Below are positions 10,489 through 32,083 of a stretch of 64,000 nucleotides of DNA, piece by piece. The position numbers were made by a program, and so were the translations under genes. The number at the start of each line of letters is the position of its first letter. Position 1 is the stretch's first letter. The notes under the pieces were generated by a model. That model saw only the letters and a list, made by a program, of their open reading frames with translations. It ran no database searches and was not told the DNA's origin. This stretch comes from Hymenobacter sp. GOD-10R (lineage in GTDB: Bacteria > Bacteroidota > Bacteroidia > Cytophagales > Hymenobacteraceae), in assembly GCF_035609205.1 (NCBI RefSeq), contig NZ_CP141184.1, positions 4,037,001 to 4,101,000 of the forward strand, read 5' to 3'.

Positions 10489-10517
10489 GCTTTTGGACTC
10501 GATGGCAAGGCAGCCAT

Positions 10518-12395: not shown

Positions 12396-12591
12396 AGCGG
12401 TTGAGGACGAAGAGGTTGAATCACAGCCGGAAAGTAGCCAGGCAGCATTCCTACCTAGCCCCGAAATGCGCCAACGGGGTCTTTTCAGCCGCCAGCGCTT
12501 CTACTCCCGCCTAAGCGCGACTTGCAGCGGCGTTGGCGGCTCTTTTGCGAGCGTTGACGGAAATCCAGCGCAGCATTTGAGCTGATTTCGA

Positions 12592-12599
12592 TAGTTTGC
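12592..12599 (+). promoter_or_regulatory. Possible -7 box upstream of the histidine kinase
   Basis: TAGTTTGC, close to the Bacteroidota -7 consensus TAnnTTTG, lies 33 bp before the proposed kinase start. No clear -33 box was found at the usual spacing. Confidence 0.3.
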
Positions 12600-12631
12600 C
12601 AGGGCAACCTTCCTCCTGGTTTTGCGCACTC

Positions 12632-13657: not shown

Positions 13658-13685
13658 CTAGCTGTCCATCTTTCTTGATTAGGTT

Positions 13686-14387: not shown

Positions 14388-14600
14388 GCAAACCTAGCTT
14401 CCGGTAGGACGAAGTGCGACATGCCTTATCCGTTGGAAGTTGGCTTTAATCTGCTGTGTCAACAGCTAGCTTCATAATAGCTGCTGCTTGGCTGATAGAG
14501 TCCTGATAGCCTATGTGTTGCCTTACGCTTCTATGCGGATTGATAAGAAAGCAACGCTATATTGACCGGCCAATAGCTCCTCTCAGACGTTCTTTTTGCT

Positions 14601-15965
14601 ATGAAGCCTCTTGCTTTGCTGCCTTTGCTAGCCTTGTCCTACCTATCGCACGCCCAAGCGCCACAGCCCTTATTCGCCCAACCTACTCCGGCTCAGGCGA
14701 AAGCCGATGAAAAGCTCTTCAACAGCAAGGCGTGGAACACGCCTTACAAAACCAACCTGAGCGAAGACGAGAAAGTAGCTGGCTTGTCGAAGTTTTGGGC
14801 AGAGGCCAAGTACAATTTTGCCTTCTTCGACAAGGTTCCGACCCTCTCATGGGATAGTCTTTATCTAGCTTACCTGCCCAAGGTGCGCGCTACCACTTCC
14901 ATGCTGCGCTATTATGAAGTGTTGCAGGAAATGTGCGCTCAGCTTCACGATGGGCATAGCAATGTGTACCCGCCCGAGGAGCTTTTTGCGGAAGCCTTCG
15001 AAGCACCACCCGTTCGTACGGCCCTTATTGAAGGCAAAGTAGTTCTAACTGAGGTCCGTAGCCCTAGCTTGCGCCAACAGGGCGTGGTACCAGGGGTAGA
15101 AGTGCTAGCCATCGATGGCGTGCCTGTACGAACATACGCTCAGCAGCGGATAGCGCCTTACCAAAGCGCTTCTACGTCGCAAGACCGCGAGATGCGGACC
15201 TATTCCGCGCGCCTTTTAGCGGGTGCCGCCAACCAGCCCGTCACGCTGTCATTGCAAGATGCGAAAGGCCGCCAGTTTACCCGAACCCTAGCCCGCAGCG
15301 GCTACTCGGATGCCCAGAGCAACCAGCCGCCGCTGTTAGAAGTCAAGGTTCTGAAGGGCAACATTGGCTACGTAGCACTCAACTCTTTTGCCGACAAGGC
15401 CTTGCTGACCCAGTTCGCGGATGCCTACCCACAACTAAAACAAACCAAAGCCCTTATCCTCGATGTGCGCCGCAATGGCGGCGGCAACAGCGACATCGGC
15501 TTTAGTATTCTGAAGTATTTGCTCGACAAGCCTTTCCAAACCACCGTGTGGCACACTCGCGACTATCGGCCTTCGTACCGACCTTGGGAACTGCCCGAGC
15601 TATGGTACGGGGAAGCCGAAGCGCCCGTATCACCCCAGGGTGCCACTCCCTACGCCGGAAAAGTAGTGGTGCTGACTAGCGCCCGCACGTTCTCGGCCGC
15701 CGAGGACTTTGCCGTGGCCTTCGATTACGCGAAGCGTGGCCTCATCATCGGCGAGCCTACGGGCGGCAGCACCGGTCAGCCATTGTCCTTTAGCTTGCCC
15801 GGTGGCGGCTCAGCCCGTGTGTGCACCAAGCGCGACACCTACCCTGACGGGAAGGAGTTCGTCGGGGTAGGCGTGCAACCCCAGCGCGTGGTGCATCCTA
15901 CCATCAGCGATGTGCGCGCTGGGCGTGATACCGTGTTGGAATCAGCCCTACACGAAATTCACTAG
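14601..15965 (+). CDS. S41-family (tail-specific-like) serine peptidase, secreted
   Basis: 454 residues with a signal peptide (MKPLALLPLLALSYLSHAQA). An N-terminal helical region (FWAEAKYNFAFFDKVP, LHDGHSNVYPP) resembles S41 proteins of the tricorn-core/IRBP type. A PDZ-like segment follows (VVPGVEVLAIDGVPV). The catalytic domain contains ALILDVRRNGGGNSDIGF and VVLTSARTFSAAEDFAVAF, where the Ser of FSAAEDF is the expected nucleophile, then GEPTGGSTGQPLSFSLPGGG. Probable role is periplasmic or extracellular peptide degradation. It begins 213 bp after the response regulator, so it may be a separate transcript. Confidence 0.88.
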   Translation: MKPLALLPLLALSYLSHAQAPQPLFAQPTPAQAKADEKLFNSKAWNTPYKTNLSEDEKVAGLSKFWAEAKYNFAFFDKVPTLSWDSLYLAYLPKVRATTSMLRYYEVLQEMCAQLHDGHSNVYPPEELFAEAFEAPPVRTALIEGKVVLTEVRSPSLRQQGVVPGVEVLAIDGVPVRTYAQQRIAPYQSASTSQDREMRTYSARLLAGAANQPVTLSLQDAKGRQFTRTLARSGYSDAQSNQPPLLEVKVLKGNIGYVALNSFADKALLTQFADAYPQLKQTKALILDVRRNGGGNSDIGFSILKYLLDKPFQTTVWHTRDYRPSYRPWELPELWYGEAEAPVSPQGATPYAGKVVVLTSARTFSAAEDFAVAFDYAKRGLIIGEPTGGSTGQPLSFSLPGGGSARVCTKRDTYPDGKEFVGVGVQPQRVVHPTISDVRAGRDTVLESALHEIH

Positions 15966-16113
15966 TAGTGTAAACCTAGGTTGCTTAGGCTACTCTAGTG
16001 CCTGTTAGCTAGACACTTGCAGGTGCATTGAGCGTTGCTTAGGAAACAACAAAATACTTGAATAAGACTGCTCATTTGCTTAAAAGCGCCTAATGGGCGC
16101 CAGAACGGCATCC

Positions 16114-17523: not shown

Positions 17524-19593
17524 TTATTTTTCTGCCTGCCCCGTGGCAATCCACGGCTGCTGCGTGCCCCACGTGCGGTTAGGCTCGTCGGCGGCCACGA
17601 ATACCAGCGTGCCACCAGCCGCCAGCTCTTGGTGCGTGAGCCAGTTGCGGTTCAGAGGCTTGCCATTCAGGCGAGCGGCTTGGATGTAGCGGCGGGCCGG
17701 CGCGTAGTTTTCCACCTCGATGACCAGGGGCTGCTTTGCCGCTACTTGTAGCTTGATCTGCCGGAACAAGGGCAGGTTCAGGTAGTACACAGGTTGGCCC
17801 ACGCAGGCCGGCATCAGGCCGCAAGCCGTTAGCACGTACCACGCCGACATGGCGCCTGCATCGTCGTCCATGGTGCGCAGGTAAGCTTGGGGCTGGTTCT
17901 GGTAGATGCGCCCGATGTAGGGGTCGATGCCGCGGCTGTTATCGTTGAAGTAGTGCTGCACCACCGTGTCGGCGGCGAGTTGGTGCATGAGTGCCTGCGA
18001 CTTCCACGGCTGCTGCGTAGCGTTATAGAGCGTGGGGGCTTGCAGGTCCGTTTCGTTGGCGTGGTTGTAGTAGTCGCCGGCAAAAAACGCGTCGAGCTGT
18101 TGACGAAACGCCTCCTCACCGCCCATCATTTGCTGCAAGCCCTTGATGTCGAAGGGCACATTCCAGCGGTACTGCCAGATGGTGCCCTGGTACAGCCCCC
18201 GAGTTGGCAGGCGGTCCACGTCGGGGCGCGTCATGTCCTGAAAGTCCTTGCGCCAGTAGTCTTGGTACTGCAACGCCTTTTGCCGGTACTTGGCGCTCAA
18301 GGATTTGTCCTTCAGAATACCTAGGATTTCGGACAGCGCCCATGCGTCGTACGACGACTCTAGCGCCTTGTCGGGGTGGGAGTAGTCGAGCCGCTCGACT
18401 TCGCTGATGAGCGAGTCGCGAATGCCGCGCAGGTCGACGGCGTACCCTTTGCGCACCGCGTCCAGCAGCACCACAATGGCGTGCTCGGTGCGCACCGTGG
18501 GAGAAGGCTCGTGCTGCGTAGCAAAGTTCTTTTTGCCGTAGCGGTACAGGTTGGCCAGCGAGGGCGCAATATCCTGAAACTCGTTGGGGTAAGCCAGCGA
18601 GAACAGCGGCAGTTGCGTGTGGTAGTTGTCCCAGATGGCCCATCCGTTATACACCGGCCGCTTCGACTTTTGCAGCGATCCATCGATGGCCCGGTACCGC
18701 CCGTCTGGCTCCGACACGAGGTAGGGCGACTGCAAGGTGCGGTAGAGCAACGAGTAGAACAGCCCTTGGCGGTCCGCTTCGCCCTGCACCTGCACGCGAG
18801 CGAGCTGGGCATTCCAGGCTAGGCTGGCTGCCCGGCGCACCTCCTCGAACGAGGTATGGGCCTGCCGCTGCACCGTAGCTTGCGCATCGGCAACACTCAC
18901 GGAGGAGAAAGCCACGCGCACCTCCACCTCGGCGGCACCTGTGGCGGGCAGGCGGACCAGCAACTGGTGCGCCCCGGCCGCCGTCCACTGCGCCGGCTGA
19001 TTGAGTTCGAGGTAGTAATAAAGTCGGTACGTACCCGCGCTGCACGTCGTGCCGGCTTCAATCCAGCCGCTGAGGGCAGCATCTTGCGTGGCGTGTTCTT
19101 CCTGCTTAAAGCCGTTGGCCAAGGAGTGCGCTAGGTCGAGGTACAGCGTCCGCTCAGCGCCAGCGGGGAAGTGGTAGCGGTGCAAGCCAAAGCGCTGGCC
19201 TACGGTTAGCTCGGCGCCTATGCCGTTGGCAAACGTGACACTGTAGTAGCCAGGTTCGGCTTGTTCGCTCTTTTTGAGCAGTTGCGTTTGTTGCGGGTCA
19301 GGACCTAGGCAAGGCTTTACGAGCAGGTTACCGCCCGCGCCTTGGCAGCCCACCCCTTCGAAGCGCGTGTGCGTGAACCCTAGGAAAGTACGGGCTAGGT
19401 GCTCGTAGCCGGTGTGCGTGTTGGGGTACGTCTGCGGCCCCAGGCTGAGCATCGAGAACGGGTAAGAAGCCGCCGGCGAAAGCTGCCCGTGGTCACCAGA
19501 CGTCCCCAGAAAAACATTGACTTGCTGGGTGGGTGTTTGAGCTAGGGTAGGAAAACAGATCAGCAGGAAAAAGAGCCGGAGTAAATAGCGCAT
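17524..19593 (-). CDS. GH92-family alpha-mannosidase
   Basis: 689 residues with a signal peptide (MRYLLRLFFLLICFPTLAQ). GH92 landmarks in order: NVFLGTSGDHGQLSPAASYPFSM, NTHTGYEH and GFTHTRFEGVGCQGAGG in the N-terminal beta-sandwich; then WDNYHTQLPLFSLAYP, QGTIWQYRWNVPFD, NDNSRGIDPYIG and DDDAGAMSAWYVLTACGL in the (alpha/alpha)6 barrel, with the expected acidic residues. GH92 enzymes are calcium-dependent exo-alpha-mannosidases acting on N-glycans or yeast mannan in the periplasm. It is the last gene of the long minus-strand run that starts with susC. A palindromic repeat lies between it and the esterase, so co-transcription is uncertain. Confidence 0.93.
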   Translation of the reverse strand: MRYLLRLFFLLICFPTLAQTPTQQVNVFLGTSGDHGQLSPAASYPFSMLSLGPQTYPNTHTGYEHLARTFLGFTHTRFEGVGCQGAGGNLLVKPCLGPDPQQTQLLKKSEQAEPGYYSVTFANGIGAELTVGQRFGLHRYHFPAGAERTLYLDLAHSLANGFKQEEHATQDAALSGWIEAGTTCSAGTYRLYYYLELNQPAQWTAAGAHQLLVRLPATGAAEVEVRVAFSSVSVADAQATVQRQAHTSFEEVRRAASLAWNAQLARVQVQGEADRQGLFYSLLYRTLQSPYLVSEPDGRYRAIDGSLQKSKRPVYNGWAIWDNYHTQLPLFSLAYPNEFQDIAPSLANLYRYGKKNFATQHEPSPTVRTEHAIVVLLDAVRKGYAVDLRGIRDSLISEVERLDYSHPDKALESSYDAWALSEILGILKDKSLSAKYRQKALQYQDYWRKDFQDMTRPDVDRLPTRGLYQGTIWQYRWNVPFDIKGLQQMMGGEEAFRQQLDAFFAGDYYNHANETDLQAPTLYNATQQPWKSQALMHQLAADTVVQHYFNDNSRGIDPYIGRIYQNQPQAYLRTMDDDAGAMSAWYVLTACGLMPACVGQPVYYLNLPLFRQIKLQVAAKQPLVIEVENYAPARRYIQAARLNGKPLNRNWLTHQELAAGGTLVFVAADEPNRTWGTQQPWIATGQAEK

Positions 19594-19694
19594 GAAACGG
19601 CAGGGTAAAAAGAGAGTCGAACGGGCAGGGAGGACAACGATAAGTGGATGGCCGTGCCAGCAAGTACCAGCCAGACTAATGCTAAAGCTAGTAG

Positions 19695-19821
19695 CTAGTT
19701 CCCCTCCTTTTTTAAGGAGGGGTTCAGGATGGTCTGGCTAGGGCTAGAAAGCTAGCTTCTACTCATTGTTCAACGACAAGGAACCACCCCTAGCCCCTCC
19801 TTAAAAAAGGAGGGGAACTAG
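19695..19821. repeat. Palindromic repeat element, copy 1
   Basis: The ends are inverted copies of CTAGTTCCCCTCCTTTTTT followed by AAGGAGGGG, and each end is itself a hairpin (CCCCTCCTT...AAGGAGGGG). The centre contains GTTCAACGAC. A related element occurs at 24086-24221. The layout resembles a MITE-like or REP-type dispersed palindrome with no coding capacity. Outside the core, AAAGCTAG-type sequence extends the inverted symmetry. Confidence 0.85.
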
Positions 19822-19862
19822 CTTTAGCTTTTAGCTTTAAACTTCTTTGTCACTTGTGGTAG

Positions 19863-20591
19863 CTACAAGTACCAATTGACCATTTGCTTCCAGGCTGCCG
19901 GGTTATGAGCCTCCCCTTCCCACACATGCAGCTCATGGTCGATATGCTTGGTTTGGAGCTGCTGGCTCAGGAAGAAGTTATCTGCCAAGAACGCATCTTC
20001 CGCCCCGATAGCGAAGGTGATATCTAGGCGGCGGAGGTGCTGCAAGTAGAAGTCGTCGCTGAGCTGCGGGATGTAGCGGTTGGGCGTGTTCAGGTACACG
20101 TCATCATCTACATAGCCTTGGAATAAATCGGCGAACGTGGCCATGGACTGGGTCAGGTCGTAGCGGCCACTCATGCCCACTACCCGGCCGAAGCGCTGCG
20201 GATGCCGAAAAGCTAGGTTCACGGCGTGAAAAGCGCCCATGCTACAGCCCGCAGCTATCAGAAACATGTTGGGGTTGAGGCTTTTTGAGAACGGCAGCAC
20301 CTCGTCCAGAATGTAGCGCTCGTACTGCAAGTGGCGCTGAATCCGCTCGGCCGGGTGCTTGGCTTTGCAATACAGGCTTTCCGCGTCGATGCTATCCACG
20401 CAGTAGAGCTGCAAGAACCCGCTTTCGATCTTAGGCCGCAGAGCTTCCACCACGCCCCAGTTCTCATAATCGTAGAAATGCGCCTTCCGCGTAGGAAAGA
20501 ACAAGACCCGCGCACCCGCCGTCCCGAAGACGAGCAGCTCCATGCGCCGATTCAAAGCCGAACTGAACCATTCGTGGTACTCGCGGTGCAT
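19863..20591 (-). CDS. Alpha/beta-hydrolase esterase (esterase D/PF00756-like)
   Basis: 242 residues from the ATG at 20591 (MHREYHEWFSSAL), the usual start of this family; an ATG at 20621 is upstream. The nucleophile elbow is IAAGCSMGAFHAVNLAF (GxSxG). The acid is probably in ITFAIGAEDAFLADN and the catalytic His in HELHVWEGEAHNPAAWK. No signal peptide is visible, so it is probably cytosolic. Related proteins are small esterases or acyl hydrolases of unknown substrate. It follows the GDSL hydrolase by about 50 bp on the same strand, suggesting joint transcription and ester removal from the same substrate. Confidence 0.85.
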   Translation of the reverse strand: MHREYHEWFSSALNRRMELLVFGTAGARVLFFPTRKAHFYDYENWGVVEALRPKIESGFLQLYCVDSIDAESLYCKAKHPAERIQRHLQYERYILDEVLPFSKSLNPNMFLIAAGCSMGAFHAVNLAFRHPQRFGRVVGMSGRYDLTQSMATFADLFQGYVDDDVYLNTPNRYIPQLSDDFYLQHLRRLDITFAIGAEDAFLADNFFLSQQLQTKHIDHELHVWEGEAHNPAAWKQMVNWYL

Positions 20592-20642
20592 ACGGGTAGG
20601 CGAACTACAAGTGGAGAGCATATCGGATCCGGAAAGTGGTGC

Positions 20643-21260
20643 CTAGGTCTGCCCAGGCGGGGGCAGCATACGCGCTAGCTGCGCCCCGATTTCTCGCTGC
20701 CACAGCGCGTAGCCTTGCGGCGAGAGGTGCAAGCCATCGGGGTCAAAGAGCGCGGATTGGGGCTGGCCTCGTTCGTCCAGCATGTGGTGGTAGAGGTCGA
20801 GGTAATAGAGCGGGGTGCCCTGCTGCTCGATCAACTGCCCGATGCAGTAGTTGGCGTACTCGATGTTGCCGCGCAGGTGCTGGCGGGCGATGCTAGGCTT
20901 AATGGAAATAAAGCACACGGGGATTTTGCCTAGCGCTGCCTGCACGCGCGCCAACAGCTGCTCAAAAAACAGCACCACTTCCTCGGGGTTGCGGCCGTCA
21001 CCCAGGTCGTTGTCGCCGGCGTACACGAAGAGGTAATCGGGTTGTTGGCGCGGCACAACCCGGGCGAAAAACCAGGCGCAGGCCGCCAACGTCGACCCGC
21101 CAAACCCTAGGTTAACGGCCTCAATCTGCGGGAAGCACCGCTCCAGTTCCTCCCCCCAGCGGGTGAAGGTGGAACTGCCATAAAACACCACTTTCGGCCG
21201 ATCGGACTTGGTTGCTGGCTTCTGCTCCAGGCGTCGGATATCGTCTTGGTACCACTGCAT
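20643..21260 (-). CDS. SGNH/GDSL-family hydrolase
   Basis: 205 residues, no signal peptide. Block I is VVFYGSSTFTRW with the nucleophilic Ser, block II is NLGFGGSTL (Gly), block III is YAGDNDLGDG (Asn), and block V is DGLHLSPQGYALW (Asp-x-x-His). These four blocks define SGNH esterases, which remove acyl or acetyl groups from lipids or carbohydrates. It lies between the PHP-domain gene and the alpha/beta esterase on the same strand. Substrate unknown; a deacylating role fits the neighbouring phospholipase-like gene but is an inference. Confidence 0.88.
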   Translation of the reverse strand: MQWYQDDIRRLEQKPATKSDRPKVVFYGSSTFTRWGEELERCFPQIEAVNLGFGGSTLAACAWFFARVVPRQQPDYLFVYAGDNDLGDGRNPEEVVLFFEQLLARVQAALGKIPVCFISIKPSIARQHLRGNIEYANYCIGQLIEQQGTPLYYLDLYHHMLDERGQPQSALFDPDGLHLSPQGYALWQREIGAQLARMLPPPGQT

Positions 21261-21503
21261 TTGTTCTGGGAAAGCGCTGAGCGCCGGCTAGCCGCTCGGG
21301 CTCAGGAAGAAGATCTTTCGGCGGCGACAAAGCAACCTTCTTCTTCGGCAAAGGTCGGCCGGAAAGAAGGGCTTCGTCATTACGCCATCATTACGAGTAG
21401 ATGACGTTTGAGCTAACGGACGATCATTATGGCCCTGAGTTGCACAGCCGTGGTGGGTTTAAGGGAGTGCGCCGCATAGAATACTCGATTCATTAAGCCA
21501 GGG

Positions 21504-22937
21504 CTAGCCCAACCAGATCGGGTTTGTTAAGGCTAGCATCTCGCCCTGAGGCGTGCGCACTTCCACCCGCACGTACTTCGTCGCACCGGCCGGAACGGTC
21601 CAGTGCCAAGTGGCAGCTTTGCCGATGGCAGCTTGCTCCGTGAACAGAACGCCCTTCTCCCCGTGCAGCGTCACGACTGCCTGAGCGGGTATTTGCTGCA
21701 AGGTAAAAGCTACTTGGACCTTTTTCCCAACCACAGCAGGCAGCCGGTCACCTAGGTTGGCGGTAGCGGCGCCGGCAGTAGCCGTTAGGGTCAACCTCAG
21801 CTTGTTATCGGCACTCAGGTAGGCATTGCCCTTCCGCAACCCTTGCATGATCCCGCTGCGCGACAAGCTTTTAGCCTTCACCACGGTTTGGGGTCGACCG
21901 AGCTGGTTGGGAGAAGGCGCCGCTGTGTGCGTGTCACTATCGGCCACGGCCAGCTTAGCCGTGCCGGCACGCAAGAGGTCGTCCCACCACTTCAGCGCGA
22001 GTTCGTCGAGGGCATCCCACTGACCGTTCCAGACTTCGATGCCATCAAAGTCCTTGACATCAAACCCGAAGCCGTTGATGCACTCCTTGGTGTAAAAAGC
22101 GTGGTTGATGATAGCCAGGCCGCTATCGGCGTGCACTTGGGCTAGGTATTTTGTTACGGCTTTATCCTGGGAGGTGTAGCGCCACTCGATGAGCGTGGTG
22201 GGCGACAGGCCCATGGCATTCCAGTGCCCGAAGGCCGTGGTGGTCACTTCCTCCCCGTTAATAATGAGCAGGTTCTTAGGCGCGTACTTGCCCCAGCTCA
22301 GGTTGGCGCTGTTAGTGTTGTGCTCGGTCGAGACGATGAAGTCTAGGCCTTGGGCCACGGCTTCGTTCACTAGCTCTTGCGGGGTGCGCTTGCCGTCAGA
22401 GTGCAGCGTGTGCATGTGCAAATCGCCGCGGTACCAGCCGGGTTGATTGTTTACCGAAGCCGGCGCGGGCATTAGTTGGAATGCCGGTTTATCGGGGCCG
22501 GGCACTAGCGATACGGCTAGCTCCCAGTCAATTCCCTCCGGCAAAATCGTGGAAGGATAAATTAGAATGTGCCAGCGGCCGGGCTTGATCTTGCCGGGTA
22601 TGTACCCCGTGGAGGCCTCCTGCGCATTGAGAAAGAACTCCGTCTTCGCCCCACCCGACCAGCCCCGGAAACCCGCCGTATTACCCATCTGGTAGCCCTC
22701 TGGCCCGTAAATACCTAGGTTCAGAACGTTCTTTCCTTGCTGCGAGTAGATTTCCTTCACCCGCAGCTCCGCAATGCCCGTCGGCACGTCGATGGGCACG
22801 TACACCAGCTTGAACAGGCTATCCGCGGGGATGTGCCCCTTCTTGCTGATACTAGTAACAGACTGAGCTGTTGCTAGGTGCGCTAGCGCGAAGCTCAGCA
22901 CACCTAGCAACAGCAGGAAACGCTTCGTAACTCGCAT
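21504..22937 (-). CDS. CehA/McbA-family metallohydrolase with PHP domain
   Basis: 477 residues with a signal peptide (MRVTKRFLLLLGVLSFALAHLATAQ). An N-terminal beta-rich domain (about 35-160) precedes a PHP metallo-phosphoesterase domain starting near residue 168 with YRGDLHMHTLHSDGK, followed by VSTEHNTNS, INGEEVTT, IINHAF and AVADSDTHT. These supply the His/Asp/Glu ligands for two or three metals. CehA/McbA proteins are exported hydrolases of phosphoesters, carbamates or related bonds. The start is only 6 bp past the stop of the PI-PLC-like gene, so the two are almost certainly co-transcribed. Confidence 0.9.
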   Translation of the reverse strand: MRVTKRFLLLLGVLSFALAHLATAQSVTSISKKGHIPADSLFKLVYVPIDVPTGIAELRVKEIYSQQGKNVLNLGIYGPEGYQMGNTAGFRGWSGGAKTEFFLNAQEASTGYIPGKIKPGRWHILIYPSTILPEGIDWELAVSLVPGPDKPAFQLMPAPASVNNQPGWYRGDLHMHTLHSDGKRTPQELVNEAVAQGLDFIVSTEHNTNSANLSWGKYAPKNLLIINGEEVTTTAFGHWNAMGLSPTTLIEWRYTSQDKAVTKYLAQVHADSGLAIINHAFYTKECINGFGFDVKDFDGIEVWNGQWDALDELALKWWDDLLRAGTAKLAVADSDTHTAAPSPNQLGRPQTVVKAKSLSRSGIMQGLRKGNAYLSADNKLRLTLTATAGAATANLGDRLPAVVGKKVQVAFTLQQIPAQAVVTLHGEKGVLFTEQAAIGKAATWHWTVPAGATKYVRVEVRTPQGEMLALTNPIWLG

Positions 22938-22943
22938 GCTCTC

Positions 22944-24026
22944 CTACTTGCCGGCTGTATTCTTAGCAAATACCGGATCGGGCCGGAAATACTTGCCGTC
23001 GGAGAAACTGATGACGTAGTCGGATTTGAAGTGCGTGCTCTTCTGGTAAAAATCGGTGCTGATGATCTGCGCACCCGATTTCATAGCCGCTTCAAAGCTG
23101 CTCTTATCATTCTTGCGCGCTTCCTGCGTATCGCTGTCGGCCCGCGTCCGGATGATGTAGCCTTTTTGGACTAGCGCCTGAATGGCAGCTAGGTCCTTTT
23201 TGGCGTTGTTCATGATGTGAATCGCGGCCTCGGGCGTGCCCGGCTCGGCATCGGCGAACAGCACCCGGCCTTTCAAGGAAGGATGGCCGGCGATGTACGT
23301 CGCGCGCTTCTCGCCTATTTCATCCAGAATAAAAATGTACTTGCCCCGCGCTTGCTTCAACGTTGGCCAATTCTGGTGCAGCACGGCGCTTTCCAGCGTC
23401 TCGTATTTTCCCCGCACCTGATCGGGCGTAATGATGTTTTCCCGACCTAGGTTATCGATGATTTCCTTGTCCAATTGGTCGAATACGGCGGCGGTAAAGG
23501 GCTCCGGCACCGTAAAGCCCGGCCGGCTCATGGCCTCCGATTTGGCGTTCATGGTAATGAACACGGGCGGGTGGTCCGGGTGTGCTGCCGAAAAGCGCTT
23601 GAGCTCCTGCAAGCACATTTTGAACGTAGGGCAGTTGCTGCGGAAGTCAATATCTTGAATGTGGAACACCTTGAAGCCCGGCTGCTTCATCACGCCTTCC
23701 GTGTCGTAGGCCGGCTGGCCAGGAGCTAGGTCTAGACCTTTAGGGTGGGCGTATTTGCCGCCTTGCTGGTCGGCATACACGTCAATTTCCAGAGCGGACA
23801 GTCCCATACCTAGCTGCTCGCTCAGCGACAAATGGCTGTAATCAATCTTGCTCATGCTCACTGAGTCATTCTTCTGGAGCATACGAAACAGCTTCGGGTC
23901 AATGGCTTGCTTGTAGCTGTTGTGCGAGCCAATCACCTGTATTTTGTTGATCGGCAACTCATCATCCTTAGCAGGTGACAGAAAGGAGGAAATCAGGAGA
24001 AGACTGGACAGTGAAATGACCTTCAT
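22944..24026 (-). CDS. Phosphatidylinositol-specific phospholipase C-like protein (Ca2+-dependent PI-PLC-C1 type)
   Basis: 360 residues with a signal peptide (MKVISLSSLLLISSFLSPA). The TIM-barrel PLC fold is recognised from IQVIGSHNSYKQ with the first catalytic His, LSEQLGMGLSALEIDVYAD with the metal-binding acidic pair, GFKVFHIQDIDFRSNC with the second His, and C-terminal IRTRADSDTQEARKND. These match the Ca2+-dependent PI-PLC-C1 family. Such enzymes cleave phosphodiester bonds of phosphatidylinositol or similar lipids outside the cell or in the periplasm. It lies downstream of susCD across a palindromic repeat and directly upstream of the PHP-domain gene. Confidence 0.9.
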   Translation of the reverse strand: MKVISLSSLLLISSFLSPAKDDELPINKIQVIGSHNSYKQAIDPKLFRMLQKNDSVSMSKIDYSHLSLSEQLGMGLSALEIDVYADQQGGKYAHPKGLDLAPGQPAYDTEGVMKQPGFKVFHIQDIDFRSNCPTFKMCLQELKRFSAAHPDHPPVFITMNAKSEAMSRPGFTVPEPFTAAVFDQLDKEIIDNLGRENIITPDQVRGKYETLESAVLHQNWPTLKQARGKYIFILDEIGEKRATYIAGHPSLKGRVLFADAEPGTPEAAIHIMNNAKKDLAAIQALVQKGYIIRTRADSDTQEARKNDKSSFEAAMKSGAQIISTDFYQKSTHFKSDYVISFSDGKYFRPDPVFAKNTAGK

Positions 24027-24085
24027 GTTGGCTGAGTTATTTGATACCAGAGCTAAAAAGCTAAGGTTAGAAAACTAAAGCTAAG

Positions 24086-24221
24086 CTCCCCTCCTTTTTT
24101 AAGGAGGGGTTGGGGTGGTCCAGTTAGAGCTAGAAAATAGAGCTAGGTTTTAGCCCTGATATCGTTCAACGACCTTAACCACCCCGCCCTTCGGGCACCC
24201 CTCCTTAAAAAAGGAGGGGAG
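24086..24221. repeat. Palindromic repeat element, copy 2
   Basis: The ends CTCCCCTCCTTTTTTAAGG and its inverted counterpart CCTTAAAAAAGGAGGGGAG bound a 136-bp element. The inner symmetry GGGTTGGGGTGGTC/ACCACCCC and the central CGTTCAACGAC match the element at 19695-19821. No coding capacity. It lies between susD and the PI-PLC-like gene and would form a strong hairpin if transcribed. Confidence 0.85.
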
Positions 24222-24243
24222 TTGAGAACCCTAGACCTAGCTT

Positions 24244-25833
24244 TTAGTATCCCTCGTTCTGCTTCAGATTGGGGTTGAGCTTCAGCTCGTTGGTGGGCAC
24301 CGGGTACAGGCGGCGGAAGGTGCTCTTGTCCATTTTCAGGTTGTCATTCGGCAGTGGATATTCTACCTCAAACTGCCCGAACCGGATCAGGTCGTTGCGG
24401 CGCCACCCTTCCCAGTACAGCTCACGGGCTCGCTCGTCGGGGATGCCGTTTAGGGTGATGGAACCAGCCGTTTGGGCCCCGGAACGCGCCCGGATTTTGT
24501 TGACTAGCACCAAGGGCGTTTGCAGCTCGCCGTTGATGGAGGTGGCGGAGGCACCACGCAGGATGGCTTCCGCTTTCATCAGCATCACGTCGGCGAGGCG
24601 GAACACGGGTACGTCATTGCTATTCAGGCGGGTAGCTTGGATGATAGTCGGATCGGGATAGTACTTGATGGAGCGCACACCTTCCGACTGGCTGGTGAGG
24701 GTGTTGCCTAGGTCCATGGGCTTGGGCGGCACCAGCGTCAGCACCGGATCAATCACGATTTGCGTGGTCGTGCCGGGGTAGTACACCGGCGTATTGGTGA
24801 AGCCACCGTTGCCGTCGGGCACGAACTGCGGGCCGGCTAGCCACGTTTTGGTGCGGAAGTCGCCCAGCAGATTGAAGCGGTTGTAGAACTCGGGCGTGGT
24901 GCTCATGGCAATGCTCAGGCCCACGTTGAAGCCATAGGCCTGCGTGAGATAGTAGAAGAAGCCAAAGCGCGTGAACTGGTTACCAGGGATTTGCTGATCG
25001 TAGGGAATGGCGAAAATTGTCTCGTTGATCTGCGGGCCGTTGTTGGGCAGGAAGATGTCCCGGTACTTGGCATCGAGGCTGTAGTTGCGATTAGTCTGCA
25101 CGCTGTCGGCCATGCGCACCACGTCGGGGTAGCGCGGTGTGCCCACGTACACCTCCGAGTTGAGGTACATCTTTGCCAGCAGCGCAAACACCATCCCCTT
25201 GGTCGGGCGACCGTATTGCTGGGTGTTCGTGGAGAGTGAGTTCGTTTTGGCCGGCAGCTGCTTCACTACGTCAAGCAGTTCCGTTTCGATGAACTTGTAC
25301 ACTTCCGACCTAGGTTGGGTGGCCGGCGGGTCGTTCACGGGGTACTCCGTCACGATGGGCACGTTGCCGTACAAGTCCATCAGGAAGAAGTAGTACAAGG
25401 CGCGCATGGCCCGGATTTCAGCCAACTTGGTGTTCAGTTCGGTCGCGTTGAAGCCGAAGTTGTTCGTAATCGGCAGCAGGCGGTTGCAGGTCAGAATGCC
25501 GCTGTAGGCCCACTGCCAAATGCCGAGCACGTTGGGGTGGTCGGGCGTCCAGGTGTGGTAGTGCAACTGCCGGTACTGCCCGCCATCGTCGAAGTTGCCG
25601 TCGCGGGCCGGGATGATGGCCGCGTCGGTCGACATTTCCTGCATGCGCCAGTACGGCACGGCGTAGCTCGACGACAGGTTGGCGTAAATGGCTCCTACCG
25701 AGGCGTTGTAATCGGACAAGGTTTTGGGGAAGTTGGACTCCACAAATTGCGACTCGACGGGCACATCTAGTTCGCAGGAGCTGGTGAACAAGGCCAGCAG
25801 GCCACTAATGAGCAGTAATGCTTTATTTTTCAT
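24244..25833 (-). CDS. SusD/RagB-family nutrient-binding outer-membrane lipoprotein
   Basis: 529 residues from the ATG at 25833 (MKNKALLL); an upstream ATG at 25854 is less likely. The lipoprotein signal ends in LFTSSCELDVP, with the Cys as lipidation site. SusD features include the N-terminal SusD-like region (YANLSSSYAVPYW), the TPR-like helices with AEIRAMRALYYFFLMDLYGNVPIVTE, and the C-terminal signature ARELYWEGWRRNDLIRFGQF ending in YPVPTNELKLNPNLKQNEGY. It caps the SusC porin and binds oligomeric ligands at the cell surface. It lies 33 bp downstream of susC. The ligand is not evident from sequence. Confidence 0.97.
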   Translation of the reverse strand: MKNKALLLISGLLALFTSSCELDVPVESQFVESNFPKTLSDYNASVGAIYANLSSSYAVPYWRMQEMSTDAAIIPARDGNFDDGGQYRQLHYHTWTPDHPNVLGIWQWAYSGILTCNRLLPITNNFGFNATELNTKLAEIRAMRALYYFFLMDLYGNVPIVTEYPVNDPPATQPRSEVYKFIETELLDVVKQLPAKTNSLSTNTQQYGRPTKGMVFALLAKMYLNSEVYVGTPRYPDVVRMADSVQTNRNYSLDAKYRDIFLPNNGPQINETIFAIPYDQQIPGNQFTRFGFFYYLTQAYGFNVGLSIAMSTTPEFYNRFNLLGDFRTKTWLAGPQFVPDGNGGFTNTPVYYPGTTTQIVIDPVLTLVPPKPMDLGNTLTSQSEGVRSIKYYPDPTIIQATRLNSNDVPVFRLADVMLMKAEAILRGASATSINGELQTPLVLVNKIRARSGAQTAGSITLNGIPDERARELYWEGWRRNDLIRFGQFEVEYPLPNDNLKMDKSTFRRLYPVPTNELKLNPNLKQNEGY

Positions 25834-25866
25834 ACAAGTACTTTCAGCAAGCAAGAAGCTAGGTTC

Positions 25867-28800
25867 TTAAAACGAGGCGTTTAGCCCCAGAATCAGCGTG
25901 CGCGTTTTCGGGTAGAAGTTATTGTTGTCGATACCCGGGGTCAGACCGCCGATGTTGATTTCGGGGTCGATGCCACGATACTTGGTGATAATGAACAGGT
26001 TGTTGCCGGTCACGTAGAGGCGGATAGCTTTCACCGCGGGCACTTTCGGACGAATCGTGTAGCCGAGCGTGGCGTTGTCGAGGCGCAGGTAGGAGCCGTC
26101 TTCCAGGAAGCGGTCGGAGATGAGGTAGCCGTTGATGTCGTTGAACGATTCGCCCAGCGTGAAGCGCGGAATGTTCTGGAGCTTCGAGTCGGCGGGGTTA
26201 TTCAGGGAAGCTAGGGTGGCGTTCAGGATCTTATTGCCGGTTACCCCGCGCACCAAGAAGTTCAGATCGAAGCCCTTGTAGCTGAAGCTGTTGTTCCAAC
26301 CGTAAATCAACGTCGGCTGGGCGCTGCCGGCGAGGCGCTGATCAGTCGTGAGGGGCTGCGTGGCCGTGATGCTGCCGTCGGCTTTCTGGTAGGTGCTCAC
26401 GCCCGCTTCGTTTTTGCCCATGTAGTGCCACAGCATGAACGTGCCGAGCGGAGAGCCGGGCTGCACAATCTGGCTGTAGTTGCCCGACTGGCCCTTCCCC
26501 CCTAGCTGCGCCGTCTGGATGTAGGGAATGGTAAACTGCCCCGCCGACAGGTTGTCGATGTTGTTTTTGTTATGCGAGAAGTTGAGCGAGGACGTCCAGC
26601 GGAAGTTATTCGTGCGAACCGGCACCACGTTCAAGGCCACTTCGATGCCTTTGTTGGTCATGCGGCCCACGTTGGCGGTGTAGGTGGTGTACTGAAACTG
26701 CGTGGAAGACACCGGCAGCGCATCGTTGATCAAGTCGCTGGTTTTCTTGATGTAGTAGTCAACCGAACCCGTGATACGGTTATCCAAGGCGCCGAAATCA
26801 ATACCGATGTTGGTGGTAGCGGTGCTTTCCCACTTCAGGTCGGGATTTTCATTGCGCACGGCGTTCACCACGTTGGCGATGGTGCCGTTATTCAGGTATT
26901 TGCTGCTGCCCGGCGGCGTGCCGTAGATCAGGATGGACGAGAAGGCGTCGAAGCCTTGGCTGTTACCCGATACCCCGTAGCCCGCCCGGATTTTCAAATC
27001 GGTCAGAGCCGGCAAATCCTGCATGAACTTCTCGTTGATCACGCGCCAGCCTAGGGCCACCGTGGGGAAGTAGCCGTAGCGGTTGTTCTTACCGAAGGCC
27101 GAAGAACCGTCGCGGCGGATCGAGGCCTGGGCTAGGTACCGGTCGCCGTACTGGTATTGCACGCGGCCGTACTGCGAGATGAGGCGAAGCGTGGAAATGG
27201 GGTTGTTAGTAAAGGCAATCTGCGAAAGCGAAGCCGGGTTCGACAGGTACAAGTTGTTGTAGCTGAGGGCGTCGTTGGCGAAGTTCTGGGTCGTGATGCC
27301 GAAGCCGTCGTTGGTGCGGTCTTGCTGATAGGAGTAGCCAGCCAGCAACTTGAAGCTATGCAGCCCTAGGTCGCGGTCGTAGTTGAAGTACGACTCCACC
27401 ACGTCGTTCGTGTTGAGGTATTGGTTGCGGCGAGCCACCCCACCTAGGTTTACCGCCAGCCCCGACTTGCTATTCAGGTAGCTGCTGAAGTTGTTTTGCG
27501 TTTTCTGCGTAGCACCCGTCAGCGTGAATTTTAGGCCTTTCAGAATATCGACCTGCACCACCCCATTGATTAAGGATTTATTATCCTTGGTCACATACGT
27601 ATTATTATCAACGAGCGAAAGTGGATTAAGCGGGCCGCTACCCGTGCGGGTATAGTTTTCTTTGTAACTACCATCCGGATTAAAAGGGCTTACCGTTGGC
27701 AGATAAAATAGCATTCCGGATAACACGTTGGTTTGCGGAATATCATTTTGATTGGTGGTACTATTAATAAAATTAATACCTAGCTTCAGCCGGTTATTAA
27801 AGAAACGTTGATTAACGTAGCCGCGCAGAATAATACGCTCTAGCGAAGTGCGGCGCAAAATACCGTTATTCTTGAGGTAATTGGCACTAGCGCCGTAGTC
27901 CGTATTATTAGCAGCGGCGCCAAACGACAGATTGTGGTTGGTAGAATAGCTGGTGCGCTCTACTAAGTCCTGCCAATTGGTGTTCGAGCCATCGTCGTCA
28001 GCCGGATTAGCTAGCGGTTTTACCTTGTTATCGGCTAGGTATTTCCGCAACTCATCTGCGGTTAGCATGTTGATGCGCTTGGACACTTTCTCGACCGCGC
28101 CGTACGTGCTGTAGGTCAGCCTAGCTTGACCGGCCTTCGACTTTTTGGTGGTAATGATAATGACCCCATTGGCCGCTCTTGCGCCGTAAATAGCTGTGGA
28201 AGAAGCATCTTTCAAGACCTCAATGCTGGCAATATCATCAGGAGCTAGCAGGTCGATAGAGGCGCCGGGCACGCCGTCAATCACGTAGAAGGGCTCCGTG
28301 ACGCCGCCATTTACCGTGCGAATGGTAGAAGGGCCGCGCAACACGACGGAAGGCCGCTGGTTGGGGTCACCGCTCTTAGTGATGTTCAGGCCAGCAACTT
28401 TGCCTTGAAGCAGCTGCGCTGGGGTCGTCAGCACCCCTTGGTTGAAATCCTCGGACTTGATGGTGGTTACCGAGCCGGTGATATCCTGCCTCGTTGACGT
28501 ACCGTAACCAATTACGACTACGTCACTTAGCTGCTTGGCATCGCTGGCTAGGGCAACGTTGATAACGGTTTGCGCGCCTACTGTTACTTCTTTGGCTACC
28601 GTTCCGATGGCGGAGAACACCAAAACGTCGGTGGGCGCAGCAACTTCAATTGTATAAGTACCATCACCGCCAGCGGCCACGGCTTTGTTGGAGTCTTTCA
28701 ATCGGATGGTAGCACCCGGTAGCGCCGTATTCTTCTCGTCGGTTATCGTGCCTTTGACGGTTTGTTGCGCGAATGCAACTGTTGACAACGTCAGAAATAT

Positions 28801-28875
28801 CAGCAGTACGAATGCCCGCTGATGCAATTTCTTTAGAACAATTGTCGAGTGTTTTGGAGGGTAGTATTTTTTCAT
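25867..28875 (-). CDS. SusC/RagA-family TonB-linked outer-membrane transporter
   Basis: 1002 residues. After a signal region (AFVLLIFLTLSTVAFAQ) comes a carboxypeptidase-D-like domain (VKGTITDEKNTALPGATI), the TonB-dependent plug with DVVVIGYGTSTRQDITGSV and VLRGPSTI, the motif ASIEVLKDASSTAIYGARAANGVIII, and a long beta-barrel ending in TRTLILGLNASF with a terminal Phe. It is the TonB-powered importer partner of the SusD protein immediately downstream. No sigma/anti-sigma or hybrid two-component regulator is adjacent, so its control is not visible here. An AT-rich upstream region holds a candidate promoter. Confidence 0.97.
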   Translation of the reverse strand: MKKYYPPKHSTIVLKKLHQRAFVLLIFLTLSTVAFAQQTVKGTITDEKNTALPGATIRLKDSNKAVAAGGDGTYTIEVAAPTDVLVFSAIGTVAKEVTVGAQTVINVALASDAKQLSDVVVIGYGTSTRQDITGSVTTIKSEDFNQGVLTTPAQLLQGKVAGLNITKSGDPNQRPSVVLRGPSTIRTVNGGVTEPFYVIDGVPGASIDLLAPDDIASIEVLKDASSTAIYGARAANGVIIITTKKSKAGQARLTYSTYGAVEKVSKRINMLTADELRKYLADNKVKPLANPADDDGSNTNWQDLVERTSYSTNHNLSFGAAANNTDYGASANYLKNNGILRRTSLERIILRGYVNQRFFNNRLKLGINFINSTTNQNDIPQTNVLSGMLFYLPTVSPFNPDGSYKENYTRTGSGPLNPLSLVDNNTYVTKDNKSLINGVVQVDILKGLKFTLTGATQKTQNNFSSYLNSKSGLAVNLGGVARRNQYLNTNDVVESYFNYDRDLGLHSFKLLAGYSYQQDRTNDGFGITTQNFANDALSYNNLYLSNPASLSQIAFTNNPISTLRLISQYGRVQYQYGDRYLAQASIRRDGSSAFGKNNRYGYFPTVALGWRVINEKFMQDLPALTDLKIRAGYGVSGNSQGFDAFSSILIYGTPPGSSKYLNNGTIANVVNAVRNENPDLKWESTATTNIGIDFGALDNRITGSVDYYIKKTSDLINDALPVSSTQFQYTTYTANVGRMTNKGIEVALNVVPVRTNNFRWTSSLNFSHNKNNIDNLSAGQFTIPYIQTAQLGGKGQSGNYSQIVQPGSPLGTFMLWHYMGKNEAGVSTYQKADGSITATQPLTTDQRLAGSAQPTLIYGWNNSFSYKGFDLNFLVRGVTGNKILNATLASLNNPADSKLQNIPRFTLGESFNDINGYLISDRFLEDGSYLRLDNATLGYTIRPKVPAVKAIRLYVTGNNLFIITKYRGIDPEINIGGLTPGIDNNNFYPKTRTLILGLNASF

Positions 28876-29071
28876 TGGCCCTTGCTTAGTCTTTTAAAAC
28901 TTCTGCAAAGCAATGGCCTAGCTATTACCTTAAGGTTAACGGTAGATTACCAATCTACTTGAAGTAATAATCATTTGGATTATTCTACTAATGCCTACAT
29001 ACGGCAATTTTTCTTTTAAATAAATTTACCTTATTCATTAGACACGGATCAAAGATTAACTTAGTATTAAG

Positions 29072-29079
29072 CAAATATA
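29072..29079 (-). promoter_or_regulatory. Candidate -7 box for susC
   Basis: On the minus strand the sequence reads TATATTTG, a full match to TAnnTTTG. A TTG lies about 23 bp further upstream, slightly beyond the usual spacing. The leader to the susC start would be about 190 nt. Confidence 0.4.
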
Positions 29080-29180
29080 TTTATCTCATGAACTTTGTTT
29101 TACACAAGCGCATCTAAATTCTTATAAGTATTTAGTAAAACAATAATACCGCAGTAATAATTACGGAACCCAGCAACCAG

Positions 29181-29188
29181 TACCTTCG
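29181..29188 (+). promoter_or_regulatory. Candidate -7 box for the phosphoesterase lipoprotein
   Basis: TACCTTCG fits TAnnTTTG with one mismatch and lies 44 bp before the proposed ATG at 29232. No strong -33 box is visible. Confidence 0.35.
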
Positions 29189-29231
29189 CGTCTTTGTAGC
29201 GTAAATTTTGGCCTTACCTGAAGCGCAGCTC

Positions 29232-31967
29232 ATGAAGTGTACCCGCCTTTTTACCCATCTTATCTTGTTCGGTTTCTGGGTTGTCTTTACGAGTTGCTCT
29301 ACCCAAAAACCTCCGCAGACATCGGTAAGCGCGGAGCAGGCACGGATGCACAGCCCGTACGACGACAGCACTCTGAACAACAATGTGTTGCCCGTACTCA
29401 TGCCGTACAACCGGTTGATTTCGCCAGCGGGCAAAACCATCGTGTACGGCAGCTCGAACCTAGAAAACCATAGCCTGGACGTGCGGCTGGTGCCGCAAAT
29501 GCCTTTGCTGGCCGTGGAAGACCGCTACGGCGTGGCCCTGCTTGACACGGTCAAGCGCAACGTGGCAGCCCGCTGGACTTACCTCGACGATGCCCGCTAC
29601 AAAGGATTTATGAGCACGTACTCAGGCCTGAAAGTGCAGCCGCAAGCCGATGGCGTTCACCTCTTCTGGAGCGCAGCCAACGGCCAGACGCACGAGTCCT
29701 ACGTGCTGGAGGCCGTGTACACGGGGGGCAAGATCAAGACCCGGCGGCACTTCTCTTTTGCGCCGGTTGCCTCTCCTCTCGCCCTGCCCAATGACCTAGC
29801 TCTCACGACGGAGAACGGCCAGAACTACCTCTACGTGGTGCTCAATGGCAACAATCAACTCGTGAAGCTGGACCTCGCTACGGAGCAAGTTGTGTGGACC
29901 AAGCCCACGGGCGTCGCGCCCTACGGCATCACGATAGCCGGGCAAAAAGCCTTTGTCAGCAACTGGGCTGGCCCCGTCCCGACCGATACGGTGCGCCGCG
30001 AGGTAGCCGGCGTGCCCTACGGCAGCGCGTACATCGAGCCCCGCACTGGTGCCATTGCCCAAGGCACCATCACGGTTCTGAACCTAGCCGATGGTCAATT
30101 AGTAAAAGAGCTGCCGGTTGGGCTCCACCCCAACGCGCTTATTACCAGCCCCGACGAGCAGTTTGTGTATGTAGCCAACGGTAACAGTGACCAGGTTTCG
30201 GCCATTGCCGTGGGCAGCTTGCAGGTGAGCGAAAGCATAACGGTGCAGCTCATGCCGGGACAACAAGGCTTCGTAGGCGACACGCCCAACGCCCTAGCCC
30301 TCGACCCCACGGGCACTACTCTGTACGTAGCCAATGGCCTCGACAATGCCGTGGCGGTTGTGAAGCTAGGTCGTCAAGCTTCGCGGGCGGGCGCTGAAGG
30401 CGCAAGCCAAGTGCAGGGCTTTATTCCGACGGAAGCGTATCCCGGCGGTTTGGCGCTTGGCACGAACTCCTTGTTCGTCACGAACATAGAAGGGGAAGGC
30501 GCACGCGTCAGCAACCAGGACATGCTGCGCGAAAGAGTTGATTTGGAAACTGCGCTGCGTGGTAGCGCCACCATCTACAACTCCCACCACCAGAAAGCGA
30601 CCGTTTCGCTGATTCCGCTGCCAACCGCTGCCCAACTGGTGAGCCATTCGGAGAAGGTGCAAAAGCTCAACTTAACGTTTCGTAAAGACCTAGCTCGCCT
30701 CCTGCCCCGCGAGAACGTGGCACCTAGGCCCATGCCCGAGCGCATTGGGGAGCCGTCGGTGTTCAAGCACGTTATCTACATTATCAAGGAGAATCGCACC
30801 TACGACCAAGTGCTGGGCGACATGCCCGAGGGCAAGGGCATGAAGTCGCTATGCATATTCGGGGACAGCATCACGCCCAACCAGCACCAGCTAGCCCGCG
30901 ACTTCTTGCTGCTGGACAACTACTATGTATCCGGTAAATCGTCGGCGGAGGGGCACCAGTGGACGGATGCCGCAATGGTGACGGATTACGTGGAGAAGAG
31001 TGTGCGAGCCTGGTTTCGGAGCTACCCGCACGTGCAGGAAGACGCGCTGGTGTACAGCACCAACGGCTTTATCTGGAACAACGCCGCCGACCACGGCAAG
31101 ACCGTCCGGATCTATGGGGAAGCCAGCAAGCCGCACTACGACAACAGCTTAACCTGGACCGACATCTACAACAACCGCAAAGCCGGCAAGCCGTTCGTAT
31201 TCACGAACACTAGCACTATTTCCCGGGTGCGCCCCCTCCTCTCCCCCCTCTATCCTGGCTCCGACGATTTAAAAATCACGGACCAAATTCGGGCCGACGC
31301 CTTTATTAAAGAGCTGGAAGAATACGAAAAGCAACCCGGCGACGCTTTCCCGGAGCTGACGGTTATGGCCCTTTCCACCGATCATACGGTGGGCACCCGG
31401 CCCGGCTTCCCGACGCCCAACGCCATGGTCGCCGACAACGACCTAGCCCTTGGCCGAATGATTGAAGCCCTGACCAAGAGCCGCTTTTGGAAGAACACCG
31501 TGGTATTTGTGACTGAGGACGACTCCCAAGCTGGCTGGGACCATGTGTCGGCTTACCGCACCACGGGGTTTGTGGTGAGCCCCTACAGCCGCTTGCAGAA
31601 AACCGTTTCGACGAACTACAACCAGACGTGCATTGTGCGCTCGATTGAGCAGATCCTAGGTATTCCGCCCATGAACATCATGGATGCCACGGCGTTGCCC
31701 ATGTTCGACTGCTTTGCCGATAAGCCAACGGCCAAACCCTTCCGCAGCCTGAGCAACCGCGTGCCCATCGACCAAATCAACCCGCCACTTTCCAAGCTAA
31801 CGGGCGCAGCGCTCCGGTTCGGCCGCCTTTCCCTGCGACCTGAGTTCGACCACATCGACAGCGGGCACGACGATCTGATGAATCGCATTATCTGGTTTGC
31901 CACCAAAGGCAAGCAGCGCTACCCCGCGTCTATGGCCGGCAAGGACGAAGACGATGATGACGACTAA
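29232..31967 (+). CDS. Lipoprotein with YncE-like beta-propeller and C-terminal phosphoesterase domain
   Basis: 911 residues from the ATG at 29232 (MKCTRLFTH); the frame opens at 29208. The lipoprotein signal ends in VVFTSCSTQ. Residues about 40-430 form a beta-propeller of YVTN/YncE type (LYVVLNGNNQLVKLDL, VVWTKPTGVAPYGIT, FVYVANGNSDQVSAI, TLYVANGLDNAVAVV). From about residue 510 comes a phosphoesterase domain (PF04185-like): KHVIYIIKENRTYDQVLGD, LLDNYYVSGKSSAEGHQW, ALSTDHTVGT and VTEDDSQAGWDHVSAYRT, supplying metal ligands of the phospholipase C/alkaline phosphatase superfamily. The tail is Asp-rich (DEDDDDD). Probably a surface or periplasmic phosphodiesterase, divergent from the susC run. 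Confidence 0.88.
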   Translation: MKCTRLFTHLILFGFWVVFTSCSTQKPPQTSVSAEQARMHSPYDDSTLNNNVLPVLMPYNRLISPAGKTIVYGSSNLENHSLDVRLVPQMPLLAVEDRYGVALLDTVKRNVAARWTYLDDARYKGFMSTYSGLKVQPQADGVHLFWSAANGQTHESYVLEAVYTGGKIKTRRHFSFAPVASPLALPNDLALTTENGQNYLYVVLNGNNQLVKLDLATEQVVWTKPTGVAPYGITIAGQKAFVSNWAGPVPTDTVRREVAGVPYGSAYIEPRTGAIAQGTITVLNLADGQLVKELPVGLHPNALITSPDEQFVYVANGNSDQVSAIAVGSLQVSESITVQLMPGQQGFVGDTPNALALDPTGTTLYVANGLDNAVAVVKLGRQASRAGAEGASQVQGFIPTEAYPGGLALGTNSLFVTNIEGEGARVSNQDMLRERVDLETALRGSATIYNSHHQKATVSLIPLPTAAQLVSHSEKVQKLNLTFRKDLARLLPRENVAPRPMPERIGEPSVFKHVIYIIKENRTYDQVLGDMPEGKGMKSLCIFGDSITPNQHQLARDFLLLDNYYVSGKSSAEGHQWTDAAMVTDYVEKSVRAWFRSYPHVQEDALVYSTNGFIWNNAADHGKTVRIYGEASKPHYDNSLTWTDIYNNRKAGKPFVFTNTSTISRVRPLLSPLYPGSDDLKITDQIRADAFIKELEEYEKQPGDAFPELTVMALSTDHTVGTRPGFPTPNAMVADNDLALGRMIEALTKSRFWKNTVVFVTEDDSQAGWDHVSAYRTTGFVVSPYSRLQKTVSTNYNQTCIVRSIEQILGIPPMNIMDATALPMFDCFADKPTAKPFRSLSNRVPIDQINPPLSKLTGAALRFGRLSLRPEFDHIDSGHDDLMNRIIWFATKGKQRYPASMAGKDEDDDDD

Positions 31968-32083
31968 GGCGCGCTATACCATCCTAGATTCCTGCAGATA
32001 AATTTCGCGCATCAAGCCGTGTGGTTTAGGGTGGTTGATCACTTGTCGAATAACGACTAAATCTCGTTTTCTAGCTTCCAAGC

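Follow-up and report, generated by a model that had tools for sequence, protein, structure and literature searches.

A SusC-SusD-phospholipase C block in Hymenobacter sp. GOD-10R as a probable organic-phosphate uptake module beside a separate GH92 group

Seven consecutive minus-strand genes of Hymenobacter sp. GOD-10R, with an eighth gene running divergently, raise the question of whether a SusC/SusD importer, a phospholipase C (PLC), a PHP-type metallohydrolase, two ester hydrolases and a GH92 mannosidase work together, and on what substrate. The window analysed here is a stretch of 64,000 nucleotides, and all positions refer to it. An initial annotation had read the genes as one system for a mannose-containing, phosphodiester-linked substrate. 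All eight open reading frames (ORFs) were found at the coordinates and in the Pfam/NCBIfam families that it had given, including the divergent propeller/phosphoesterase gene and the PHP gene that starts 6 bp after the PLC gene (Table 1).

Table 1. Features of the locus, with positions in the window.
Feature	Position	Strand	Evidence	Assignment
GH92	17524..19593	-	292 bits	neighbouring module, outside block
Esterase PF00756	19863..20621	-		neighbouring module
GDSL hydrolase PF13472	20643..21260	-		neighbouring module
Block	21446..32076		blastn, L231 against window	present here, missing from nearest relative's orthologous site
CehA/McbA-type PHP metallohydrolase	21504..22937	-	NF038032, 225.8 bits
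PF16670 PI-PLC-C1 phospholipase C (Ca2+-dependent)	22944..24026	-	Pfam, 430 bits (430.2)	core
SusD surface lipoprotein	24244..25854	-	PF07980 and PF14322, lipobox	core
SusC TonB-dependent outer-membrane importer	25867..28875	-	TIGR04056, 723 bits	core
Candidate regulatory element, 11-bp-period repeats TAAY-N18-TAAY-N14-TTTG	28906..28949	-	12/12 match
Propeller and PF04185 phosphoesterase lipoprotein	29208..31967	+	lipobox	divergent, within block

The protein described at first as PI-PLC-like belongs to the PF16670 PI-PLC-C1 family, far above the Pfam cut-off of 29.9 bits, and is encoded once in the genome; the PF00388 profile had 0 matches there and likewise 0 in every control genome, so that its silence carries no information. 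Columns that are invariant among 12 aligned sequences include GSHN and ExD, and the PLC profile found only weak relatives in the PDB, the bacterial PI-PLCs 3h4w and 5fyo. The PHP protein scored 23.9 bits with the Pfam PHP profile, under its cut-off of 26.4, and exceeded the cut-off of 80 for the CehA/McbA profile NF038032. Signal-peptide-like N-termini were seen in the GH92, PHP and PLC proteins, and lipoboxes in SusD and the propeller/PF04185 protein. The window PLC has 0 Cys among its first 45 residues and is predicted not to be a lipoprotein; because of this and its signal-peptide-like start it is probably located in the periplasm, as the PUSI enzymes of Flavobacterium johnsoniae are likewise predicted to be in the available text of PMC8115612. 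A wider claim, that the PLC lipobox is absent across all relatives, was withdrawn, since the lipobox rule, positive for 0/79 PLCs, recognised only 26/63 SusDs, and 28/78 related PLCs carry a Cys ahead of the conserved motif; the window PLC is the one clear case. By eye, the GDSL hydrolase and the esterase have no signal peptide (a crude signal rule agrees for the first but flags the second as hydrophobic), and for this reason the idea that they are outer lipases was dropped.

PF16670 is patchy: with the window's genome counted, it occurs in 12 of 150 genomes from the family and in 29 of 395 from the phylum. We surveyed the best 80 of 572 confirmed PLC relatives, a sample hence biased to close ones. 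In 59 of the 73 testable loci, which are those with at least 4.9 kb of upstream sequence, the gene immediately upstream of the PLC encodes SusD, and SusC-SusD-PLC is present in all seven other same-genus loci. Of these seven, four have a full-length PHP gene behind the PLC and a fifth (L016) has a fragment of one; in four, the propeller/phosphoesterase gene is no more than 10 kb away. Several kinds of phosphoesterase interchange beside the core: among the 80 loci we counted a second PHP (17), a metallophosphatase of the PF00149 family (9), the window-type PHP (7), the propeller/PF04185 protein (7), an alkaline phosphatase (6), an alkaline phosphatase with GDPD_2 (2) and PF01663 (2). Because none of these seven families was found near 34 of the 60 SusD-PLC loci in the same sample, the conserved, obligatory part is SusC-SusD-PLC.

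In a quick SusD tree, which came with long-branch warnings, a clade of 58 with an SH-aLRT of 100 unites the window SusD with PLC-linked SusDs from Hymenobacter, Mucilaginibacter, Pedobacter and Chitinophaga; the label 'other' on one of its rows (L056) arose solely because ORF calling overlooked the PLC there. Another six PLC-linked SusDs, from Pontibacter, Telluribacter, Spirosomataceae and others, group instead with PUSI-like SusDs, and the window's clade and the PUSI-like group share one side of a branch with an SH-aLRT of 99, to which the long-branch warnings also apply. The Hymenobacter SusD branch is nested among Sphingobacteriaceae, a sign of possible transfer.

The extent of the unit was read from the nearest relative found, a genome inferred to be Hymenobacter crusticola (G570) that has the closest GH92 (95%). 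Its GH92 locus (L231), at the orthologous place, reads GDSL-esterase-GH92-flavodoxin and is without the PHP, PLC, SusD, SusC and propeller/phosphoesterase genes. With blastn, L231 aligned to the window up to 21445 and again from 32077, the two parts being separated in L231 by 93 bases, so that the 10.6-kb stretch PHP-PLC-SusD-SusC-propeller came or went as one unit. The same relative keeps SusC-SusD-PLC-PHP at another site, which falls in the range of the H. crusticola locus L053 with its order PF01663-SusC-SusD-PLC-PHP-second PHP. Elsewhere in the window, 10496-16113 is a second segment missing from the otherwise colinear L231; it holds a serine beta-lactamase-family protein, a histidine kinase with a LytTR regulator and an S41 peptidase. 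Relatives of the GDSL hydrolase and esterase were found in one of 91 PLC neighbourhoods (L103, where they are adjacent too), a set made of the best 80 of 572 relatives and 11 others, with several genomes in both. The genes thus seem to belong to two adjacent but distinct modules, a widespread, putative unit for uptake and breakdown of inositol-phosphate compounds and a neighbouring group with an unusual GH92. The single seven-gene system of the initial annotation does not survive this comparison, as relatives split it and the nearest one has GDSL-esterase-GH92 at this site but not the block; conservation of the gene set held for SusC-SusD-PLC, often with PHP in Hymenobacter, and failed for the GDSL hydrolase, the esterase and the window GH92.

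The region before susC points to how the block may be controlled. A perfect TAAY-N18-TAAY-N13-15-TTTG pattern was found in 30 of 58 susC promoters versus 1 of 634 other promoters from the same loci, the 58 being related and so not 58 independent events; other repeat distances (15 to 30) gave 0-5 of 58. The element before susC is real. Direct repeats with an 11-bp period are characteristic of sites for OmpR/PhoB-family regulators, and the TTTG 14 bp past the repeats corresponds to the Bacteroidota -7 box. Of 16 phoX or propeller promoters outside the set used to build the motif, four matched at 11/12 or better versus 17/634 controls (p = 0.0011); two of these are phoX hits, one of them in L208, where the protein matches its family weakly (32.8 bits). 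Ranked by score, the phoX group lies above controls (p = 0.024, n = 4), and no such excess was seen for the propeller group (p = 0.19, n = 12). In the window itself both kinds of promoter, phoX and propeller, reach 10/12, as do 144/634 controls, and the sequences before the GDSL and GH92 genes reach 10/12 and 8/12. No convincing element was seen at pstS-like PF12849 genes, taken as a Pho reference (12 loci, 8 genomes), and no clear copy before the PLC genes of PUSI-like loci. Nor is the element specific to Pho genes, because in the window's genome the pattern has 11 matches and its reversed form 6, and some of its sites precede efflux genes; as a Pho box it is a candidate of moderate strength. 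Among the matches listed, including the available part of PMC3547664, no published Pho-type promoter consensus for this group of Bacteroidota was found.

Other copies of the N14 form in this genome precede a TonB-dependent receptor, two outer-membrane efflux proteins, whose genes adjoin sensor kinases, and a choice-of-anchor-I protein (L154, L156, L157 and L162). Ahead of the GDSL gene, two TAAT units 11 bp apart (21359-21404; 10/12) may be due to chance. The propeller/PF04185 protein had been considered as the low-phosphate-induced Fjoh_3414, which was dropped since the Fjoh_3414 entry has propeller signatures without PF04185; at a guess, the choice-of-anchor-I protein (L157) might be a better counterpart.

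Taken together, block 21446-32076 is probably an organic-phosphate uptake module, a variant of PUSI. This reading draws on the PUSI precedent, the SusD-PLC adjacency, the single SusD clade, the phosphoesterase partners, the element and the block boundary. The sequence itself gives the gene families, the conserved core, the boundary and the promoter element; phosphate control, the substrate, and the place and order of the enzymatic steps are inferred, as follows. On phosphate shortage an OmpR/PhoB-type regulator would act at the 11-bp repeats before susC; a soluble diester of inositol phosphate, for instance the head group of a lipid or glycolipid, would be captured by SusD and imported by SusC; once in the periplasm it would be split at the phosphodiester by the PF16670 PLC, and the PHP enzyme and PF04185 phosphoesterase would release phosphate. 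The GDSL hydrolase, the esterase and the CcMan5-like GH92 would form a neighbouring module. Phosphate scavenging is made less certain by the 34/60 loci with none of the tallied phosphoesterase families, by the element not being Pho-specific, by the lack in the window of PF00149 and of an ECF sigma/FecR pair, and by GH92 operons in relatives that point to a sugar in the substrate.

These GH92 operons involve an enzyme of another kind than the window's, here called type A, which keeps the general-acid glutamate. Within the best 80 of 572 relatives, type A GH92 follows the PLC at a distance of 4-43 bp in eight loci of Chitinophagaceae/Sphingobacteriaceae and comes after PLC-PHP in two. In all ten (L055, L056, L097, L111, L114, L115, L117, L118, L127 and L131) it is followed by a secreted protein of ~186 aa with no Pfam match, its obvious partner. 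A further locus (L144) holds a second PLC with two GH92 genes nearby, of which one shares 68% identity with type A, along with a gene for a relative of the ~186-aa protein. Counting every type of GH92, six of the eight Hymenobacter genomes with a PLC have such a gene no more than 10 kb from it, one of the six being on the opposite strand and one broken by stops; random placement would give ~0.03 per genome, though GH92 genes favour SusCD loci anyway, and these genomes have 5-10 GH92 matches each, with some genes split over several rows. The broken copy is a type A GH92 behind PLC-PHP in a Hymenobacter (L021, G100:C2:5123066-5124477), and its stop codons suggest a recent loss of the mannosidase.

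Because GH92 recurs beside the PLC in relatives, a substrate that carries mannose as well as inositol phosphate has to be considered seriously for part of the SusCD-PLC family. It is possible, if well short of an even chance, that SusCD-PLC operons import mannosylated inositol-phosphate glycans (GPI cores, or plant or fungal GIPC head groups) and, regulated by phosphate, remove mannose, inositol and phosphate from them, with type A GH92 and its ~186-aa partner performing the mannose step and the window holding a stripped-down copy that has come to lie next to a CcMan5-like enzyme for mannosyl phosphodiesters. A touch more doubtful is the initial reading cut down to the genes that stay together, in which the family at large takes up such glycans, with GPI cores, plant GIPC heads and fungal mannosyl-inositol-phosphoceramide as candidates, and gains both carbon and phosphate once GH92 has removed the mannose. 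The type A operons, L144 and the Hymenobacter neighbourhoods favour it, as do the GIPC-splitting PLCs of a fungus that, in the available text of PMC11496612, release inositol phosphate glycans, the mannosylated series of which derives from plant mannosyl-GIPC. Against it, GH92 is near only 12-13 of the 80 loci (best of 572), the window GH92 lies outside the block, and phosphoesterases are commoner partners than CAZymes. Phosphate scavenging and the use of glycolipid head groups overlap. Of the substrate proposed at the outset, a phosphodiester remains plausible, and GH92 does recur beside the PLC elsewhere; glycan foraging as the main role finds no support, because the swapping partners are phosphoesterases and the element recurs at some phoX genes.

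The window GH92 itself has Gln469 at the general-acid position, in LYQGTIWQY, located along 6f8z by counting from Cys399; the general-acid glutamate is Glu535 in BT3130 and Glu533 in BT3990, according to the available text of PMC5930347. CcMan5, a GH92 of Cellulosimicrobium cellulans, cleaves mannose-phosphate-mannose diesters. Along 2xsg, CcMan5 reads LYQGTLWQY with Tyr535-Gln536, and the two enzymes, though distant (2.1e-62), have PTVR and ANE-DLQAP segments in common. The CcMan5 glutamine reportedly (Tiels et al. 2012) fits a leaving group that needs no proton. By its own glutamine at this position the window GH92 is CcMan5-like and a candidate for activity on mannose-1-phosphate diesters; together with the type A operons, this leaves the idea of a mannose-containing substrate some room. 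Counting the window's own, 19 of 200 genomes from the family have the window type (YQG, without the general-acid Glu), and YQG is kept in 18/18 genomes whose gene was inspected (of the 19, G578 was left out). It lies directly beside another SusC-SusD pair in 10 of 16 loci (L231-L246), which speaks against its place in the system first proposed; eight of the ten have an adjacent DUF218-type gene, with DUF218 and SusD profile scans made for L232. With its SusC-SusD(-DUF218) locus, apart from the PLC block in most cases, this YQG clade is a candidate for a phosphomannan-type system.

That the seven genes are nevertheless one operon in this species, with the GH92 acting on mannose-1-phosphate diesters such as fungal phosphomannan while the block harvests phosphate, seems unlikely. 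The genes do share a strand, the GH92 is CcMan5-like, and a GH92 of the same type lies upstream of SusC-SusD-PLC in H. setariae (L063) and Hymenobacter sp. BT559 (L059). The nearest relative, by contrast, has GDSL-esterase-GH92 cleanly without the block, and neither the GDSL nor the GH92 gene has a good element at 10/12 and 8/12. Gaps of 243 bp (PHP-GDSL) and 269 bp (esterase-GH92) also stand against it; the others are 12 bp (SusC-SusD), 217 bp (SusD-PLC), 6 bp (PLC-PHP) and 21 bp (GDSL-esterase). Turnover of the cell's own inositol lipids, which some Bacteroidota make according to the available text of PMC9246714 and PMC8791184, is highly improbable given the patchy occurrence of the PLC and its coupling to an outer-membrane importer.

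If the organic-phosphate reading is right, SusCD and PI-PLC loci would represent widespread, modular phosphate acquisition in soil and plant Bacteroidota beyond Flavobacterium, with a concrete candidate for a Pho-type promoter element in this group. Two GH92 types would be tied to phosphodiesters in a directly testable way, and phosphorus cycling would be connected with plant and fungal membranes if bacteria draw phosphate from mannosylated inositol-phosphate glycans. Were the mannose-stripping operons to hold as well, glycolipid head groups would be a source of both phosphate and carbon.

Among known systems, the starch Sus-type polysaccharide utilisation locus has, like the window, SusC/SusD and secreted hydrolases, but the block, unlike a classical locus of this kind, holds no CAZyme; a CAZyme in the same unit as SusCD, the type A GH92, is found in ten relatives (best 80 of 572). 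SusCD, PI-PLC and GH92 together were not found described among the matches listed from the open-licence literature. Streptomyces PI-PLC C1 (3h4w/3h4x) is the best PDB match to the PLC profile, at only 33 bits, so its substrate may differ. PUSII of F. johnsoniae, whose enzyme PhoA1 is an alkaline phosphatase with PF13653 (available text of PMC8115612), has no PLC, and the block has no PUSII-type phosphatase; a PUSII-like alkaline phosphatase with GDPD_2 is present at two PLC loci (L092 and L103). The closest precedent is PUSI, which in the same text comprises PusD1/PusC1 (Fjoh_4168/9), an ECF sigma factor (4171) and two phosphodiesterases, 4172/4173, whose listed families are PF00149 and PF16670, and is induced as Fjoh_4168-4173 by log2 about 6-11 on phosphate depletion. 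The initial view that no locus with this set had been described is not right, because PUSI combines SusCD, PF16670 and a phosphodiesterase under phosphate depletion, though without GH92; the available sections of Lidbury et al. (PMC8115612) draw no link from PUSI to mannosidases. The PUSI-like order SusD-SusC-FecR-small regulator with a divergent PLC occurs in 8 of 20 phylum loci, where FecR was identified by profile and the small regulator by position, and the large neighbour in the one scanned (L136) is PF00149. PUSI has an ECF sigma/FecR pair, whereas the window has none next to SusC and none among ORFs of at least 100 aa from 17524 to 31967, and its gene order and SusD clade differ as well. 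Where PUSI has PF00149, the window has a CehA/McbA-type PHP enzyme and PF04185; in both, SusC/SusD is accompanied by a PF16670 PLC and another phosphoesterase.
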